From assembly GCA_002839315.1 (NCBI GenBank), contig PGXV01000007.1:129934-193933 (forward strand): a stretch of 64,000 bases of DNA. The letters run 5' to 3'. Origin of the DNA: Spirochaetae bacterium HGW-Spirochaetae-3 (GTDB lineage Bacteria > Spirochaetota > Spirochaetia > Treponematales > UBA12059). Shown here in pieces: positions 41,864-50,786 of the stretch. The notes below the pieces were generated by a model. The model ran no database searches. It saw only the letters and a program-made list of their open reading frames with translations, and had not been told where the DNA came from. The position numbers and the translations under genes were made by a program. The stretch's first letter is position 1, and each line of letters begins with the position of its first letter.

Positions 41864-41889
41864 GTCCGGGTCTCCGGTCAGGCCCGGAC
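41864..41889. terminator. Possible bidirectional hairpin between convergent genes
   Basis: GTCCGGG at 41864-41870 pairs with CCCGGAC at 41883-41889 around a 12-base loop that contains the stop codon of the minus-strand gene. There is no T tract, so termination is uncertain. Confidence 0.35.
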
Positions 41890-43812
41890 TCGTTCGACGA
41901 CCGCGCGGCAGAGCCTCGCGCCCGGGTCCGCCTCTATCAGCACGAGCGCGTGCCCCGGCCTGTCCTCGATCGTATGCGCGCCGTAGCTTATCCGAACCGA
42001 GAATCCGTGGGGATACTGGACCTCGGGCACGTATAGCTCCGTGATGGCCGCCTGGCCCGGTCCGGACTTCCAGGGCTCGAATTCGAATTCGAAGCGGCCG
42101 CTCCTCCGGTCGAAGCTCATCGCGACGGGCCTGCCCGCCGCGGCCCGCGCGTAGGGCCTGACGAAGCCGGCGAGCGCCCGTCCTCCTGCGTCGGCCGGAT
42201 CGCCCGTCTCGCTACGGCCCGCGTCGTAGTCGTCCCTGCACCAGATAGAAAGGTCCTCGCCGTTCCAGCCGTCGCCGCGAGCGTGGATGTTGCTGGCCGT
42301 GTAGTTCCATATGGTCGCCGACAGTAGGTTCTCGTCTATCGCGTCGTAGTACGACGTCAGGGCCTTTACGTGGGCGCGATAGTCGCCCGTGCCATAGGCC
42401 TTGGCGCCATCCATATCGAACGGCAGGCCGAACTCGCCTATGAGCGTCGGCGCCCCGTCCATATCGACGAGGCCTCGGCGCTTGATCCTGCCCAGGTGCT
42501 CGGAGAAATAGCGCCTGACGGCGCGCGTTCCCAGTATGGCGCGGCTTTTTTCTTGGTCGTACGCGACGAAAGGCAGGCGACGCTTCAGGAACAGCGTCAC
42601 GCTATCGTACCAGTGGCCCGCGTTGGCGGCCCCGGCGACGCCCGAGGCCGCGGTGTCCTCCGAGCTCCAATGCGGGCTCGCGACCGTCGGCACGCTCTCG
42701 ATGAACAGCATGAAGCGGCCGGCGCCGGCCGCCTTCGATACCGCTTCCCCTACGCGCCTGGCGAACGGCCGCAGGTAATCCTTGGCGAAGTGCGGCTCGG
42801 CGCCGCCCGCCTTCGCGAAATGGTCGGGCTTCCTGAGCACGGGCTTGCCGCAGCTTACGTCCCAGACGCCCTCCCTGCGCCAGACGCACTCGGCGCCGTC
42901 CTTCCACGCGGATAGCCCGTGCTCGCCGAGCGTAGCCCTGCCGACGACCTTCTGGCCCAGTCCCCTGACGCCGTAGACGTCGACGTCGGTCGGGTAGCCC
43001 GAGCCGGCCGCCATCGCCGCGAAGGGGCTGGGCATCGGTCCCGACTTGGAGACTGATCGCTGTAGCGTCGACAGGTCGGATAGGCCGATATAGCCGTCGT
43101 TCGGTTCGTTGAGCGTATCGACGCCGATGACCGCGTCGTAACGGGCGAGCCTCCCGGCGAGCCTGGCTATCGCGGCTATATAACTACCCTGCAGGAAGCT
43201 GCGCGAATCGGCGCCGTCCAGCCGCAGTCCGGGCGCGAAGTCGTCGCCGGCGAAGAATAGCGTGAACATAGTCTGGCATGCGAGCCTGGAATAGTTCGCC
43301 GGCCAGCGCATCGACGGATATGGGTCCCCCGCCTCTTCATGCACGAAGGCCGCGCTCGAACGATGCAGCCGCGTTATATCGAATCCGACCATGTCCAGCG
43401 TCCACGCGGGAGCTCCGTCGCCGCCCGTCCAGCGGCTCCAGACGTCCTGGTGCGGATCTACGAACAGCCTGACGCCGCGCTCCGCGGCCAGCGCTACGAT
43501 GCGCTCGATATAGTCGTAGTAGGCGTCGTCGTACCGTCCGGGGCCTCCCGGCTCGAGGCCCTCCCACGTGACGAGGAGGCGCGCGACGTTGAAGCCCCAG
43601 CGGGCCAGCCTGTCCAGGTGCTCCGGCGCCTCGGACTCGGGTAGCGGCCTCCCGACGAAACTGGCGCCGCGGAAATCGCGGAATTCCTCCAGGGTCGGCA
43701 GCTCGTTCCGCGGGCGGTAGGGGGTCTTGCAGTCGCCGCCGAGGTTGCAGCCGCGCAAGAGTAGCCTCCTGCCGTTCTCGTCTACGAACCATCCGTCCTC
43801 GCCTCTTACCAT
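41878..43812 (-). CDS. Glycoside hydrolase family 5, endoglycoceramidase-like
   Basis: 644 residues, no signal peptide. GH5 features: LLLRGCNLGGDCKTPYRP at the N-terminus, GFNVARLLVTWEGLEP, VRLFVDPHQDVWSRWTGG, the acid/base Glu236 in VDTLNEPNDG, and the nucleophile Glu460 in TLIGEFGLPFD. A C-terminal beta domain follows (about 540-644). The DPHQD and long inserts resemble endoglycoceramidase or glucosylceramidase relatives, which cleave glycolipids, but the substrate is not proven. GGGAGGAAG precedes ATG. It lies 19 bases downstream of an alpha/beta hydrolase gene in the same operon. Confidence 0.87.
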   Translation of the reverse strand: MVRGEDGWFVDENGRRLLLRGCNLGGDCKTPYRPRNELPTLEEFRDFRGASFVGRPLPESEAPEHLDRLARWGFNVARLLVTWEGLEPGGPGRYDDAYYDYIERIVALAAERGVRLFVDPHQDVWSRWTGGDGAPAWTLDMVGFDITRLHRSSAAFVHEEAGDPYPSMRWPANYSRLACQTMFTLFFAGDDFAPGLRLDGADSRSFLQGSYIAAIARLAGRLARYDAVIGVDTLNEPNDGYIGLSDLSTLQRSVSKSGPMPSPFAAMAAGSGYPTDVDVYGVRGLGQKVVGRATLGEHGLSAWKDGAECVWRREGVWDVSCGKPVLRKPDHFAKAGGAEPHFAKDYLRPFARRVGEAVSKAAGAGRFMLFIESVPTVASPHWSSEDTAASGVAGAANAGHWYDSVTLFLKRRLPFVAYDQEKSRAILGTRAVRRYFSEHLGRIKRRGLVDMDGAPTLIGEFGLPFDMDGAKAYGTGDYRAHVKALTSYYDAIDENLLSATIWNYTASNIHARGDGWNGEDLSIWCRDDYDAGRSETGDPADAGGRALAGFVRPYARAAAGRPVAMSFDRRSGRFEFEFEPWKSGPGQAAITELYVPEVQYPHGFSVRISYGAHTIEDRPGHALVLIEADPGARLCRAVVERVRA

Positions 43813-43831: not shown

Positions 43832-44857
43832 TCAACGCGCTACGCGCCGCTCGAAGAAATCCAGCATTCGCGCCCAGACGCGGTCGCGTTGGCTGTCGTA
43901 TATGACCAGGTTGTGCCGCATGTGGCCGAACGAGTCCATGTTGGCGACGTAGGCCTCGATATCGCTCGAGCCGAGCCCCGACTCGATGACGCCCGCGTTC
44001 CGGAAGTCGACCATCCTGTCCCCGCGGGCGTGGCAGACGAGTGCCGGGCAGGTGACCAGCCCGAGCCGCCGCTCCATCGCGCGCAGGCCGATCTGCATGG
44101 TGTAGGCCTGCCTGGGGTAGACGCCCAGGTAGCCTTTCCAGCCTTCGTCGCCGTCCTCTCCCCGCCGCTCCGGATCGGGTAGCTCGGCGCCGATGGACGG
44201 GACGAACGCGCCGAGCGTCCGGGCCAGGTAGAGGAGAGGGTTCATGACGAGGCCGTGCCTGAGCCACGCGTTGAGCACGGCCGGCGTGCCTATCGTCGCT
44301 ATCGCGTCCGGCGCGAGCGCGGCGTCCGCGCAGGTCTCCTCGGCCAGCGCCAGCGCCAGCGAGCCGCCCATCGACGCGCCGACGAGGCAGGCCCGTTCGT
44401 AGCGTGGCCGGAGAGCGGCCCATTCGTCGCGTATAGCCGCGAGGTACTGGCTCCATTCGGTACCGCGCAGGTCTCGCGGGAGGGTCCCGCAGCCGGGTAG
44501 CAACGGCGCGGCCAGGTCCCAACCCCTGGCTTCGGACGCGGCTATCACCTTGCGGTAGTCCGCTGGGGTCGACGGGAAGCCGTGCACGCAGAAGAGCAGG
44601 CGCCCGTTCCTGCCCGACGGCGCTATGGGCGCCGCCTCGGGCCATCGCAGACGGTCGGGAGACGGCGTGGAGTAGCGCGGGTTCGGCCGGAACAGGATAG
44701 GCGTCGTGTTCCAGAGGCCTATCGCGACGGCGACGAAGACGGCGGCGGCCGCTATCGCCGCCGTCGTCGGCCCGAGCGCATAGCCAGCCAGTCCGCAGGC
44801 GATAGTGATTGCGGTCAGGCCTGCTATCCTTGCCCGTATCGATACGCGGTCAGCCAT
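43832..44857 (-). CDS. Membrane-anchored alpha/beta hydrolase (lipase/esterase-like)
   Basis: 341 residues. Two N-terminal hydrophobic helices (residues about 10-50) precede an alpha/beta-hydrolase domain. FCVHGFPSTPADYRKVI holds the oxyanion HG, CLVGASMGGSLALAL the nucleophile elbow (GxSxG), HARGDRMVD the acid and SFGHMRHNLV the catalytic His region. It would cleave ester bonds, probably in lipids. It is the first gene of an operon with the GH5 enzyme, so the pair may degrade or remodel glycolipids. ATG 44857 follows TCGGAGGG. Confidence 0.85.
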   Translation of the reverse strand: MADRVSIRARIAGLTAITIACGLAGYALGPTTAAIAAAAVFVAVAIGLWNTTPILFRPNPRYSTPSPDRLRWPEAAPIAPSGRNGRLLFCVHGFPSTPADYRKVIAASEARGWDLAAPLLPGCGTLPRDLRGTEWSQYLAAIRDEWAALRPRYERACLVGASMGGSLALALAEETCADAALAPDAIATIGTPAVLNAWLRHGLVMNPLLYLARTLGAFVPSIGAELPDPERRGEDGDEGWKGYLGVYPRQAYTMQIGLRAMERRLGLVTCPALVCHARGDRMVDFRNAGVIESGLGSSDIEAYVANMDSFGHMRHNLVIYDSQRDRVWARMLDFFERRVAR

Positions 44858-44894: not shown

Positions 44895-44924
44895 AGTATA
44901 CTCCCCGCCTTCGGCTATGGTCAA
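44895..44924 (-). promoter_or_regulatory. Promoter of the hydrolase-GH5 operon
   Basis: On the minus strand TTGACC (44924-44919) and TATACT (44900-44895), 18 bases apart. Confidence 0.7.
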
Positions 44925-44945
44925 AGCGCTCGTTCCGTATATATA
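44918..44945 (+). promoter_or_regulatory. Possible promoter of the ODP gene sharing its -35 with the divergent promoter
   Basis: TGGTCA (44918-44923) and TATATT (44940-44945) with 16-base spacing. The -35 bases are the same as those of the divergent promoter, read on the other strand. Confidence 0.4.
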
Positions 44946-44965
44946 TTCGTACGATCGGAGGAAGC

Positions 44966-45742
44966 ATGGCAGCAAGTAAGGAATCGAACGACGTAATCCT
45001 GTACGACGACGGGGACCATCGCTTCATCCGTCTCGGCGCGGGATCGCGCGGTAAGAAGGGCGTGGTCCAGACTATACAGTACCTGATAGTCGACAAGGGG
45101 CGAGGCGTCCTCCTCGATCCGGGCGGCGTGCACCTGTTCCCCGGCGTCGTCGCCGCGGTCAGCCGATATATATCGATAGAGAACATCGACGCTATCTTCT
45201 TTTCCCACCAGGATCCCGACGTGTCCAGCGGGATAGCGCTGTGGCTCGGCGTGACCTCCGCCAGGATATACATAGCCGACCTCTGGATACGCTTCATTCC
45301 GCATTTCGGCGTCGTCGACCAGGCGCGCATCGCGTCCATAGAGGCCTCGGGCAAGTCGCTGAGGCTGGGCTCCGGCGCCGAGCTGGTCTTCGTACCGTCC
45401 CACTATATGCATTCCCCGGCCGCGTTCTCGCTCTTCGACCGGCGCGCGGGCGTATTATTCTCCGGCGACATTGGCGGAGCGGTCTTCCCCGAGGGCGCCG
45501 AGACCCTGTTCGTCGACGACTTCAAGGCCCACCTCAGCTATGTCGAGGGCTTCCATAAGCGGCTTATGGCCTCCAACGAGGCGACCAGGCGCTGGGCGGA
45601 CAACGCGCGCAGGCTGTCCCCCGCCATGATCGCGCCCCAGCACGGCGCGGTGTACCGCGGAGAGTCCGTCGGCGCCTTCCTCGACTGGCTGGCCGGGCTA
45701 CGCTGCGGCGTCGACGATCTCGACGCGCTGTACAGGATGTAG
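44966..45742 (+). CDS. ODP-type diiron metallo-beta-lactamase-fold protein (oxygen/iron sensor)
   Basis: 258 residues from ATG 44966 (GGAGGAAGC upstream). The fold is that of the flavodiiron MBL domain without flavodoxin. Metal-site candidates are His81, Asp83 and Asp85 ([12 protein letters not shown]), His146 (VPSHYMHS, with His149), Asp168 ([10 protein letters not shown]) and His226 ([10 protein letters not shown]). The usual HxExDH motif reads HxDxDV, as in the ODP family. In Treponema denticola an ODP protein binds O2 at a diiron site and signals through a cytoplasmic chemoreceptor encoded nearby. Here the chemoreceptor gene starts two bases after its stop. Inferred role: O2 or iron sensing for chemotaxis. 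An ordinary hydrolase or lactonase is unlikely. Confidence 0.88.
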
Positions 45743-45744
45743 CC

Positions 45745-46596
45745 GTGGCCGACGAAACCGCTTCAAACTACGCCGAGGCCATACGGCGATTCACGGTCGG
45801 CTACAACAAGGGCGTCGTGCTTTCGTCCATAACCCGGCACTCGATGGAGATTCTCGACGACTCCATGGACCAGATAGAGTCGGGGCTGTCCGCGGTCGTC
45901 GCGGCCTTCGAGGAGATACGCGCGACGAGCGGCTCGACTTCGGCCAACGCCGAGCGCATAGACGCGATGATGGCCGACGTGCTCGGCGGCAACGCGGGCC
46001 TCGCGTCCGGTATCACCGCGCGCATGGGCGACGTCGAGCGCGGCGTCGCCGTGGCCAGGAGCCTGGGCTCGATGTTCGACGCGCTCAAGGCCAAGACCGA
46101 AGGCGTGGCCGGAATCACCAGCGCCATCCAGGACGTCTCGGACCGCACCAATATCCTGGCTATCAACGCCTCCATCGAGGCGGCCCGCGCCGGCTCCGTC
46201 GGCAAGGGCTTCCGCATCATAGCCAACGAGGTGCGCACGCTCGCCGGCCAGACGAGCGACTTCGCGAGGCAGATCGACTCGAGCCTCGGGGAGCTGTCGG
46301 GCGCCGTCGGCGACATTGTCGCCCGCATGGACGAGTTCGTGTCCCTGTTCACCCGTTTCCGCGAGTCGTTCGCCGAGGTCAGGGCCAATTCCGACGAGAA
46401 CGCCGGCAGCCTCGAGCAGGCCGGGCGCTTCCTTCAGGAAATATCGGGGGCCATCAAGGAAGAGACCGTCGCCTTGGGCGACGGCCTGCATTCCCTCGAG
46501 TCTATAAGCGCCAACGTCAAGGAGACGCACGCGGTCTTCGGGTCCCTGCGCTCCAGCCACGAATTCCTCGATACGCTCTTGGACAAGGAATCCTGA
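45745..46596 (+). CDS. Cytoplasmic methyl-accepting chemotaxis receptor, ODP partner
   Basis: 283 residues, no membrane helix. A long helical hairpin carries the conserved tip: [20 protein letters not shown], then [20 protein letters not shown], which contacts CheA/CheW. The flanking helices are short, so the methylation region is reduced, and there is no ligand domain of its own. The N-terminal 40 residues ([20 protein letters not shown]) may hold the docking site for the ODP protein. It starts at GTG 45745, two bases after the ODP stop, and overlaps the next gene by one base. It would feed a soluble signal into the flagellar chemosensory array. Confidence 0.9.
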
Positions 46597-47564
46597 TGCC
46601 GCGGCGCCTTCTCGCCGTCATCACCGACGACCGTTTCGGCGGCGTGGCCGAGGAACTGGCCGTGCTCGGCCCGCTCGGCGTCGAGCTGCGCGTGGCGTCG
46701 TGCGTTAGCTCCGCCGACGTGGCCCTGGCCTGCGCCGACGCCGACGCCGTGCTCGCGAACATGGCGCCCGTCGACGCCGCCGCGATAGCCGCGATGAGGC
46801 GATGCCGAGTCGTCTCGCGGTACGGCATCGGCCTCGACAGCGTCGACGTAGCGGCCTGCGCCGCCCGCGGCATCGCCGTGGCGAACGTACCCGGCTACTG
46901 CGACGCGGAGGTGGCGGAGCACGCGCTGGGCCTGCTGCTCTCGTTGACCCGCGGTATACCGGAGCGTAACGCCGCCGTCCGCGCGGGGGCCTGGAACGCG
47001 ATCGCTCCTCAACGGTCTATAACCGGTTCCACCGTCGGCGTGGCGGGGTTCGGCGGCTCCGGTCGCGCCTTCGCGCGCGCCGTACTCGGTCTCCGACCCG
47101 CCAGGATAATCGCCTGGAGTCCTAGCCTCTCGCCCCGGAAGATAGAAGCCGCCCTCGGTCGGGAAGCCGCGGCGCTGGGCGTCGAGCTCCGCGCCGCGTC
47201 CTTCGACGAGGTGCTCGCCGAATCGGACTTCCTTTCGCTGCACCTGCGGCTGACGCCCGAGACGACCGGCCTGTTCGGCGAAGCGGCCTTCTCCCGTATG
47301 AAGCGCGGCGCCTTCCTCGTCAACACGGCCCGCGGCGGCCTCGTCGACCCGTACGCGCTGGCGCGCGCCCTGGAGTCGGGCCGCCTGTCCGGGGCCGGCC
47401 TCGACGTGCTCGACATCGAGCCTCCGCCCCCCGGGCATCCCCTGCTGTCGGCCCCGAACGTCGTCCTTACCGACCACTCCGCGTACCGCTCCGTCCGCTC
47501 CGTATCCGAGCTCAAGCGCCGCTGCGCCGAGAACGCCGCCCGCGGTCTGGGGCTACTGGCGTAG
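46596..47564 (+). CDS. D-isomer-specific 2-hydroxyacid dehydrogenase
   Basis: 322 residues. The NAD-binding site is GVAGFGGSGRAFAR (about residues 149-162). Catalytic residues: Arg in NTARGGLVD, Glu in LDIEPPPPGHPL and His in LTDHSAYRS. ISR-type signatures VSRYGIGLDSVDVAA and VPGYCDAEVAEHALGL match phosphoglycerate-dehydrogenase-like enzymes, which reduce 2-keto acids to D-2-hydroxy acids. The substrate is unknown. The start overlaps the chemoreceptor stop (TGATG), so it is translationally coupled to the ODP module. Whether it is functionally linked is unclear. Confidence 0.9.
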   Translation: MPRRLLAVITDDRFGGVAEELAVLGPLGVELRVASCVSSADVALACADADAVLANMAPVDAAAIAAMRRCRVVSRYGIGLDSVDVAACAARGIAVANVPGYCDAEVAEHALGLLLSLTRGIPERNAAVRAGAWNAIAPQRSITGSTVGVAGFGGSGRAFARAVLGLRPARIIAWSPSLSPRKIEAALGREAAALGVELRAASFDEVLAESDFLSLHLRLTPETTGLFGEAAFSRMKRGAFLVNTARGGLVDPYALARALESGRLSGAGLDVLDIEPPPPGHPLLSAPNVVLTDHSAYRSVRSVSELKRRCAENAARGLGLLA

Positions 47565-47654: not shown

Positions 47655-48218
47655 ATGGAAGGAACCAGGCGACTGGACGAGAAACGGCGAGCGGAGCTGC
47701 TCGTCATTCTGAAGGAGCGATTCAGCGATAACGGCGATAGGCATGCAGGCCTCGCATGGCCGCTCGTGCAGGCGAGCCTCGAGGCTAAGCCGGAGAAGCT
47801 ATGGTCGCTCGACGAGATGGAGAGGACGGGCGGCGAGCCGGACGTCGTCGGCGTCGATGCGGAGACCGGAAGGTTCCTGTTCTTCGACTGCTCCGCCGAG
47901 AGCCCCAAGGGCCGCCGAAGCGTCTGCTACGACCGAGCGGGCCTGGAATCGAGGAAAGAGCATAAGCCGGAGAATAACGCCGTCGATATGGCCGCCGCGA
48001 TGGGCGTCGAACTATTGACCGAGGAACAATACCGGGAATTGCAGGCGCTCGGGGAATTCGACGTGAAGACCTCGAGCTGGGTGCTGACGCCGACCGCTAT
48101 CAGGAATCTCGGCGGGGCTATCTTCTGCGATCGCCGCTACGGCCGCGTCTTCACCTACCACAACGGAGCCGAATCGTATTATGGCGCCAGGGCGTTCCGC
48201 GGCTCGCTCCTCGTATAG
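47655..48218 (+). CDS. DUF4256 family protein
   Basis: 187 residues from ATG 47655, which has AAGGAG 9 bases upstream; an in-frame TTG at 47619 lacks such a site. The sequence follows the DUF4256 pattern: LLVILKERFSDNGDRHAGLA, WSLDEMERTGGEPDVVG, then FFDCSAESPKGRRSVCYDR, VDMAAAMGVELLTEEQYREL, DVKTSSWVLTPTAIRNLGGA and the ending YHNGAESYYGARAFRGSLLV. The family is cytoplasmic and uncharacterised. It stands alone between the dehydrogenase and the yjjI promoter. Confidence 0.92.
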   Translation: MEGTRRLDEKRRAELLVILKERFSDNGDRHAGLAWPLVQASLEAKPEKLWSLDEMERTGGEPDVVGVDAETGRFLFFDCSAESPKGRRSVCYDRAGLESRKEHKPENNAVDMAAAMGVELLTEEQYRELQALGEFDVKTSSWVLTPTAIRNLGGAIFCDRRYGRVFTYHNGAESYYGARAFRGSLLV

Positions 48219-48423: not shown

Positions 48424-49914
48424 ATGAATCCAGGCCTCGCCGTCATCACCGACAGGACCCTTACCTATCAGCAGAAGGTCGCCGGGCTCGCCAAGGTAGG
48501 CGAATCCACCGAGAATCCGCTCCGCATCGGCGCGGAGCTGCAGGTATACCGCGACTCCGGCGTCATCTGCGATCTCTTCGAGGGTTCGGCGCCGTATCGC
48601 CCGCGATACATCGTGCCCGACTACGAGCGCTTCATGCGCCGGGGCTCGGCCTTCCTCGGCCTCGAGCCTCCGCGCGATATCTGGGAGGCGACCGCGGCGC
48701 TGCTGATCCTGTATCGCCACGTTCCCAGCATCACGACCTTCCCCGTCTATCTCGGCGACATCGACGCGCTCCTCGAGCCGTTCGTCGAGGACGAGGCCGA
48801 GGCGCGCAAGGCGATAGGGCTGTTCCTCCTGTCTATAGACAGGACCATAAACGATTCCTTCTGCCACGCCGACATAGGACCGGACGCGACGACGGCCGGG
48901 CGGCTGATCCTGGAGCTGACGCGCGAGCAGAAGAACGCCGTCCCCAACCTCAGCCTCAAGTACGACCCGGACCGGACGCCCGACGACTTCGCGCTGCTCG
49001 CGGCCTCGGTCGCGCTCGACGTGGCCAAGCCTAGCTTCGCCAACCACCGCATGTTCGCAGCGGAGTTCGAGGCGATGGGCCTGGGCGACTACGCGGTAGC
49101 GTCGTGCTACAACGGCCTCCCCAAGGGCGGCGGTTCGTGCACGCTGGTACGCCTCAACCTGGCCGCGCTCGCGCCGCTCGCCCGGGGCCTGGACGATTTC
49201 TCGGGCCGCGTGCTGCCAGACGCCGTGGCCAGGCAGCTCGAGTACATGGACGAGCGCGTACGCTTCCTGATCGAGGAGTCGGGATTCTTCGAGTCGAGCT
49301 TCCTCGTAAAGGAAGGCCTGATTGACGCCGGCCGGTTCAGCGCGATGTTCGGGCTCGTAGGGCTGGCGGAGGCGGTGAACGCCTTCGGCGACGGCAAGCG
49401 CTTCGGCAGGGACGCGGAGGCGGACGCGCTGGGGCTCGAGATCATCGAGCGCATATCCGCGCGGGTGGCCGCGCACCGGAATCCGCTCCTCGCGGCTAAC
49501 GGGGGGCGCTACCTCCTGCATGCGCAGGTGGGTATCGACAGCGACCGCGGCGTCAGCCCGGGATGCCGCATCCCGATAGGCGAGGAACCCGAGCTCGCGG
49601 ATCATATCCTGCGGTCGGCGCCGTTCCATGCGTTCTTCCCGAGCGGCATAGGCGACGTGTTCGCGTTCGAGCCTACGGCCAGGGCTAATCCCCTCCACCT
49701 GCTCGATATAGCAAAGGGCGCGCTCGCGAGCGGCCTGCGCTATTTCAGCGCCTACGCCGCCGACGCGGACGTCGTACGCATCACCGGTTACCTGGTCAAG
49801 CGCTCGGAGATGGAGAGGCTCGGCCGGGGCGAGGCGTCGCTGCAGGACACGACGGCGCTCGGCCGTAATGCCGTCAACAACCTCGGCGTCCTCGAGCGCC
49901 GGCTTCGCCCGTGA
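48424..49914 (+). CDS. yjjI: YjjI-family glycyl radical enzyme
   Basis: 496 residues from ATG 48424 (AGGGAG upstream). It matches the YjjI (DUF3029) group, which is shorter than pyruvate formate-lyase. The C-terminal glycyl-radical loop reads VVRITGYLVKRSE (R-x-T-G-Y, radical Gly). The thiyl Cys candidate is in VASCYNGLPKGGGSCTLVRL. Other group features are PVYLGDIDALLEPFV and the block HAQVGIDSDRGVSPGCRIPI. Such enzymes work only without oxygen. The physiological reaction of YjjI is not established. The activase YjjW overlaps its end by 4 bases. Confidence 0.93.
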   Translation: MNPGLAVITDRTLTYQQKVAGLAKVGESTENPLRIGAELQVYRDSGVICDLFEGSAPYRPRYIVPDYERFMRRGSAFLGLEPPRDIWEATAALLILYRHVPSITTFPVYLGDIDALLEPFVEDEAEARKAIGLFLLSIDRTINDSFCHADIGPDATTAGRLILELTREQKNAVPNLSLKYDPDRTPDDFALLAASVALDVAKPSFANHRMFAAEFEAMGLGDYAVASCYNGLPKGGGSCTLVRLNLAALAPLARGLDDFSGRVLPDAVARQLEYMDERVRFLIEESGFFESSFLVKEGLIDAGRFSAMFGLVGLAEAVNAFGDGKRFGRDAEADALGLEIIERISARVAAHRNPLLAANGGRYLLHAQVGIDSDRGVSPGCRIPIGEEPELADHILRSAPFHAFFPSGIGDVFAFEPTARANPLHLLDIAKGALASGLRYFSAYAADADVVRITGYLVKRSEMERLGRGEASLQDTTALGRNAVNNLGVLERRLRP

Positions 49915-50786
49915 CCGATATCGCACGCGGTGACGTCGCGCGCGGCGTCGTCGCGCGCGGCGTCGTCGCGAAGATCCTGCCGTTCAGCGCGGTCGACGGC
50001 CCGGGCAACCGGGCGGTCGTATTCCTGCAGGGCTGCGACTTCGATTGCCGCTACTGCCACAATCCCGAGACGCGCGCCCTCTGCGTACACTGCGGGCTAT
50101 GCGTCCCCGCCTGCCCGGCGGGCGCCCTGAGCCTCGAGGGGGGCCGCGTCCGCTGGGACGCCGCGCGCTGCGTCTCCTGCGGCGCCTGTATCGCGGCCTG
50201 CCCTCACGGTTCGTCGCCGAAGGCGGTCTCGATGACCGTCGCGGAAGTATTATCCTCAATCGATCGCTACAAGCCGTTCCTGAGCGGCGTCACGGTATCG
50301 GGCGGAGAATGCGGCCTCCAGCCGGCCTTCCTCGAGGCGCTGCTCGTCGAGGCGCGGGCCGCCGGGCTGCCGGGCCTGGTCGATACGAACGGCTCAGCCG
50401 ACTTCTCGTCGCTGCCCGGGGTCGTCGCGGCCGCCGAGGGGTTCATGCTGGACGTTAAGGCCTGGGACGAGACCGAGCACCGCGCGCTGACCGGCGCCCC
50501 TAACCGGGCCGTCGTCGCTAACCTGCGCTTCCTCGCCGCGGCCGGCAAGCTGTACGAGGTCCGTACCGTCGTCGTCCCGGGGCAGTTCGACGCGGCGCTG
50601 ACGGTGCGGGAGACGGCCCGGACGCTCGTAGCGGCCGGCTCGGGCGCCCGGTACAAGATCATACGGTTCCGCCCGCAGGGCGTGCGCGCCGCGTGGCGGG
50701 GGCTTCCGACGCCTGACGACGCGACGATGGGCGCGCTCGCGGCAATAGCGCTACGCGAGGGCGTCCGCGAGGTCGTCGTCGTATGA
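49911..50786 (+). CDS. yjjW: YjjW-type glycyl-radical-enzyme activase (radical SAM)
   Basis: 291 residues. Radical SAM motif CDFDCRYCHNPE (Cx3Cx2C) binds the SAM-cleaving 4Fe-4S cluster. Two ferredoxin-type motifs follow (CVHCGLCVPACP and CVSCGACIAACPHG), then TVSGGECGLQPAF and VDTNG. It abstracts a hydrogen from the glycine of YjjI. GTG 49911 overlaps yjjI by 4 bases. The first 20 residues are an unusual pentapeptide repeat (DIARG, DVARG, VVARG, VVAK) that precedes the conserved ILPFSAVDGPGNR start. Confidence 0.94.
   Translation: MTDIARGDVARGVVARGVVAKILPFSAVDGPGNRAVVFLQGCDFDCRYCHNPETRALCVHCGLCVPACPAGALSLEGGRVRWDAARCVSCGACIAACPHGSSPKAVSMTVAEVLSSIDRYKPFLSGVTVSGGECGLQPAFLEALLVEARAAGLPGLVDTNGSADFSSLPGVVAAAEGFMLDVKAWDETEHRALTGAPNRAVVANLRFLAAAGKLYEVRTVVVPGQFDAALTVRETARTLVAAGSGARYKIIRFRPQGVRAAWRGLPTPDDATMGALAAIALREGVREVVVV
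49917..49970 (+). repeat. 15-bp in-frame tandem repeat at the start of yjjW
   Basis: Three full units and a partial fourth (GATATCGCACGCGGT, GACGTCGCGCGCGGC, GTCGTCGCGCGCGGC, GTCGTCGCG) encode DIARG-DVARG-VVARG-VVA. Copy-number change would leave the frame intact. Confidence 0.8.

Follow-up and report, generated by a model that had tools for sequence, protein, structure and literature searches.

Three closely spaced genes within a 64,000-nucleotide stretch of the genome of Spirochaetae bacterium HGW-Spirochaetae-3 (the whole of this stretch is referred to below as the window) raise the question whether an oxygen-binding diiron protein (ODP), a soluble chemoreceptor and a D-2-hydroxyacid dehydrogenase jointly form one sensing system, or whether the dehydrogenase stands outside it. 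A first-pass annotation of this DNA had recognized an ODP-type sensor with its receptor, and had proposed that the third gene might tie redox metabolism to taxis.

Organization of the locus

All three open reading frames are present on the forward strand in the order ODP, receptor, dehydrogenase (collectively indicated as the trio). The features considered here are the following.

41878..43812, minus strand: GH5-type glycoside hydrolase, a synteny anchor (Pfam; conserved in relatives)
43832..44857, minus strand: alpha/beta hydrolase, divergent neighbour and synteny anchor (Pfam; kept beside the locus in relatives)
44918..44947, plus strand: candidate sigma-70-like promoter, TGGTCA-18-TATATT, upstream of the ODP gene (consensus match only)
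44966..45742, plus strand: ODP, putative oxygen-binding diiron protein, 258 aa (PF19583 match, structure matches, ligand columns)
45745..46596, plus strand: soluble chemoreceptor, apparently hairpin only, 283 aa (PF00015, AF2 two-helix hairpin, tip columns)
46126-46242, plus strand: receptor tip, approximately residues 128-166 (N136, E145 and R148; columns invariant or nearly so)
46596..47564, plus strand: D-2-hydroxyacid dehydrogenase family protein, 322 aa (PF02826, residue columns, order-wide distribution)

The ODP gene extends from an ATG at 44966 to a TAG stop (45740-45742), the receptor gene from a GTG at 45745, two bases past that stop, to a TGA (46594-46596), and the dehydrogenase gene opens with an ATG at 46596 whose A is also the A of the receptor stop, so that the coupling described in the first-pass annotation is found exactly as it was described. 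Among relatives, the gap between ODP and receptor amounts to 1-27 nt in nearly all cases and to 50 nt in one, the receptor frame being broken in one further relative, while receptor and dehydrogenase overlap by 1-4 nt in 10 of the 13 genomes measured. Since such short gaps and overlaps recur across relatives, the spacing is not due to chance, and maintenance of the tight receptor-dehydrogenase overlap over approximately nine genera could reflect selection for shared expression. The trio is probably co-transcribed. A scan of the locus, which constitutes weak evidence, revealed no terminator between its genes. The promoter candidate matches the consensus at 9 of 12 positions, in a region that holds three such sites against 0.4 expected.

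Downstream of the trio, a DUF4256 protein (PF14066, 291 bits) is encoded at 47655-48218, followed at 48427-50786 by a YjjI-family glycyl radical enzyme, representing an oxygen-sensitive enzyme class, and a YjjW-family activase. Several genomes of the genus keep YjjI/YjjW close by, among them G002, which does not carry the dehydrogenase.

Identity of the ODP protein

The first protein matches the ODP profile PF19583 over its entire length (1-194 of 194) with 236 bits against a cut-off of 27.2, while Lactamase_B (PF00753) also matches, with 63 bits. Its sequence is 61% identical to that of the Treponema denticola ODP over 246 residues, and the best solved structures by sequence are 6qnm (E 5e-107) and then 6qrq (E 1.5e-84), flavodiiron proteins (FDPs) being barely over threshold in the same search. 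The closest folds to its AF2 model (mean pLDDT 89) are 6r9n, 6qwo, 6qrq and 6qnm, corresponding to the T. denticola and Thermotoga maritima ODPs, with FDPs as the next-best folds.

The presumed metal site consists of HQDPDV (residues 81-86), the pair H146/H149, GD with D168 and QHG with H226. The six predicted diiron ligands are specified by the following codons.

45206, plus strand: H81
45212, plus strand: D83
45218, plus strand: D85
45410, plus strand: H149
45467, plus strand: D168
45641, plus strand: H226

These six residues and H146 are invariant in 30 spirochaete orthologues (one row of the alignment being truncated at H226), and the same seven positions are still invariant when relatives of 40% identity from Aquificota, Myxococcales and other groups are added. 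Alignment with FDPs assigns the histidine of their second motif to H149 rather than to H146. The zinc-type HxHxDH motif of lactonases and glyoxalase II is absent from the protein, which carries V86 where the fourth histidine of that motif would stand, and no flavodoxin domain was detected in its 258 residues, where only the ODP and Lactamase_B profiles matched. The ligands are thus ODP-type rather than lactonase- or glyoxalase-type, and the protein would be expected to bind iron and O2.

The FDPs (1vme, 1e5d) share the metallo-beta-lactamase core, and their H-x-[DE]-x-D, His and Asp ligands can be aligned with those of the ODP, but they carry a flavodoxin domain, which the ODP lacks, and reduce O2 or NO. 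A true FDP, combining ODP/Lactamase_B and flavodoxin domains, is encoded elsewhere on the same contig (L003:994-2181, minus strand), and the genome therefore holds both enzyme and sensor. The T. maritima ODP (6qrq, 6qwo) has the same fold and belongs to the same family (approximately 50% identity in the fold alignment), yet is more distant by sequence than its T. denticola counterpart (287 versus 361 bits).

The receptor and its pairing with ODP

The second protein matches MCPsignal (PF00015) with 85.3 bits. No membrane helix was found in it, the maximum 19-residue hydropathy being 1.0, and its AF2 model (mean pLDDT 86) comprises two helices, 2-148 and 150-282; on these two grounds it appears to consist of a signalling hairpin alone. 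The tip carries N136, E145 and R148, and CheA-contact residues, whose absence would have argued against the annotation, are thus intact. In an alignment to 1qu7 these correspond to N376, E385 and R388 of Tsr.

In the source genome, which contains about 24 further MCP-domain matches, a CheA (P2, H-kinase_dim, HATPase and CheW domains) adjoins a CheW-CheR fusion. The F2 system of T. denticola is arranged in the same way (PMC7666581; PMC10653840), so that both genomes hold the same CheA and CheW-CheR machinery. PMC7666581 describes the T. denticola ODP gene (TDE2498; structures 6qnm and 6r9n) as coupled to TDE2496, which is homologous to MCPs, is devoid of transmembrane and sensing modules and can modulate CheA. 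Protein family, gene pairing and receptor type are therefore shared, and the ODP and receptor of the window are the already published ODP/TDE2496 module. Differences are nonetheless evident: identity of the receptor to those of the T. denticola-type genomes (f3 g12), which have G where N136 stands here, is no more than 42-45%, and unrelated genes follow the pair in those genomes, whereas here the dehydrogenase does.

The distribution of the pair was surveyed in 244 genomes drawn from the order, most of the relatives being draft MAGs, so that some gene absences may be assembly gaps. ODP is present in 47 and the receptor in 47 of the 244; the two sets of genomes agree apart from two cases, each with one gene truncated at the end of a contig, and the genes are adjacent in every genome that holds both. 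In a set of 59 relatives, every genome with an ODP-receptor pair also has CheW, and no stand-alone ODP was found in the four that are CheW-less. An apparent ODP-receptor fusion in G056 (a 1124-aa open frame) was rejected, as there is a stop codon between the two. Owing to its near-perfect pairing over 46 genomes, ODP with its private receptor is well suited to coevolution analysis and the prediction of contacts.

Outside the Spirochaetes, the neighbours of ODP relatives of approximately 40% identity were checked and no receptor was found. Roadblock/LC7 genes precede ODP in L083 (5446-5859) and L085 (4499-4906), whereas in L090 (6761-7780) the gene after ODP encodes a response regulator.

The dehydrogenase

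The third protein matches PF02826 (169.9 bits) and PF00389 (71.9 bits). Its catalytic residues R246, E275 and H294 are present and conserved, also in the dehydrogenases of ODP-less genomes, and the protein is presumably enzymatically active. D-2-hydroxyacid dehydrogenases such as 5tx7 (glycerate/phosphoglycerate dehydrogenase-like) have the NAD-binding and catalytic domains and the R/E/H residues in common with it, but differ at the Rossmann Asp, which is Ser in the core clade here. An acidic residue after strand beta2 is typical of NAD-preferring D-2-hydroxyacid dehydrogenases, though it is not needed for membership. Ser175 (codon 47118-47120) occupies this position; Ser is found in 20 of 31 aligned rows and is the state of the core orthologue clade, Asp being kept by most paralogues and by the basal orthologues of G051 and G023, and this substitution suggests use of NADPH. 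No NCBIfam equivalog cut-off was reached, the closest models, for phosphoglycerate dehydrogenase and 2-hydroxyacid dehydrogenase, being far below theirs.

At a threshold of E<=1e-65, which is a matter of choice, orthologues of the dehydrogenase are present in 34 of the 244 genomes: directly behind the receptor in 15, elsewhere in two ODP genomes (G023 and G051) and without ODP in 17. The 15 trio genomes (G000, G001, G003, G004, G006, G007, G009, G010, G017, G028, G041, G056, G065, G080 and G107) belong to nine genera in families f1 and f4, a count that includes G056, where the trio is split over two contigs, and G017, where a contig end truncates ODP. The dehydrogenase is consequently not a peculiarity of the source genome, another point on which the first-pass annotation might have failed. 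In G013, too, a copy lies behind the pair, but it is a diverged one (40%).

The mutual co-presence that would mark a third component was, however, not observed. At the search cut-off, 31 of the 47 ODP genomes have no strong orthologue, while G005, of the same genus as the source genome, has the dehydrogenase and no ODP. Within family f1, the dehydrogenase is present in 9 of 15 genomes with ODP versus 6 of 8 without (Fisher p=0.66, a descriptive value only, because the 244 genomes are related).

In the source genome and most of its genus, the GH5 and alpha/beta hydrolase genes lie on one strand and the trio on the opposite one. Several other genera have, beyond the trio, a starch-binding-like gene and then a TPR gene (names read from the sequences rather than taken from a profile scan). 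In genus g8 (G014, G019, G021) the dehydrogenase adjoins the hydrolase and the ODP-receptor pair is absent; in G014 and G021 the dehydrogenase is again followed by these starch-binding-like and TPR genes. In genus g9 (G015, G020, G022), by contrast, the pair adjoins the hydrolase and GH5, the dehydrogenase is absent and the TPR gene lies beyond. In G002, YjjI is located directly behind the pair. No remnant of ODP or receptor was detected by tblastn beside the dehydrogenase in ODP-less genomes. A trio-specific dehydrogenase subfamily was considered and rejected, as the tree interleaves trio and ODP-less copies within a single group (21 rows, support 87/91). From the reciprocal loss and the interleaved tree it follows that the dehydrogenase is old at this locus, and that it and the pair are dispensable to each other.

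ODP domains with other partners

A search with PF19583 also retrieved, from the source genome and no fewer than eleven relatives, fusion proteins that combine an ODP domain with a receiver domain and with a GGDEF-like domain in which the GG[DE]EF motif is missing.

L163:5102-6937 (contig C4, approximately 32.6-34.4 kb), plus strand: ODP-GGDEF-receiver fusion of the source genome
L160:5294-7027, L161:4861-6702 and nine others: ODP-GGDEF-receiver fusions of relatives

Of the 12 genomes, only G033 and G053, both of which are without CheW, retain the full set of six diiron ligands in the fusion; in the other ten, the source genome included, ligands have decayed. The ODP module thus apparently is also wired to outputs besides taxis, and many copies seem to have lost the ability to bind two irons. 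A limited literature search retrieved no paper on this architecture, which may be more novel than the trio.

Weighing of the possible explanations

Homology, conservation of ligands and tip, gene pairing and independent loss of the dehydrogenase all support one reading, which judging from sequence comparison we consider very probable: a Treponema-type ODP oxygen/iron sensor with a dedicated cytoplasmic receptor, beside a dehydrogenase that is a separate metabolic enzyme. ODP would bind iron and O2 at a diiron site of the metallo-beta-lactamase fold, and the ligand-free hairpin receptor would, by analogy with T. denticola, pass its signal to CheA in an F2-type chemotaxis array with the CheW-CheR fusion. 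That the first protein is instead a lactonase- or glyoxalase II-like hydrolase or an electron-transferring flavodiiron enzyme draws on the Lactamase_B match and on FDPs being the next-best folds, but is extremely improbable in view of HxDxDV in place of HxHxDH, the missing flavodoxin domain, the far better agreement with ODP structures in both sequence and fold, and an essentially exceptionless pairing with a receptor.

A role of the dehydrogenase as functional third component, sensing or setting the NAD(P)H or 2-ketoacid state and modulating ODP or receptor, would account for a gene order kept with stop/start overlaps in 15 genomes and nine genera, and would link redox metabolism to taxis as the first-pass annotation proposed. 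We regard it as very unlikely: half of the genomes with an orthologue (17 of 34) lack ODP, most ODP genomes lack a strong orthologue, the losses at one syntenic locus are reciprocal, and ODP-less genomes retain identical catalytic residues. The proposed link between redox metabolism and taxis is therefore unsupported. Its more restricted form, whereby dehydrogenase activity in the two trio families feeds ODP-receptor signalling through a local NAD(P)H/2-ketoacid pool or direct contact, and the lineages that split the genes reverted to separate roles, is likewise highly improbable; if true, it would provide a combined oxygen and redox input to taxis. Considering how often the dehydrogenase is kept or lost without the pair, it probably does not belong to the sensor. 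It is best read as a conserved neighbour, probably co-transcribed and functionally separate, which in two families lies behind the pair, is inherited and lost independently of it, and most likely serves as a metabolic enzyme.

Gene adjacency can mislead even where stop and start codons overlap, and it is the test for reciprocal loss at a shared locus that separates the dehydrogenase from the sensor. With the sensor itself, the oxygen-taxis module of T. denticola is now seen in environmental spirochaetes as well.
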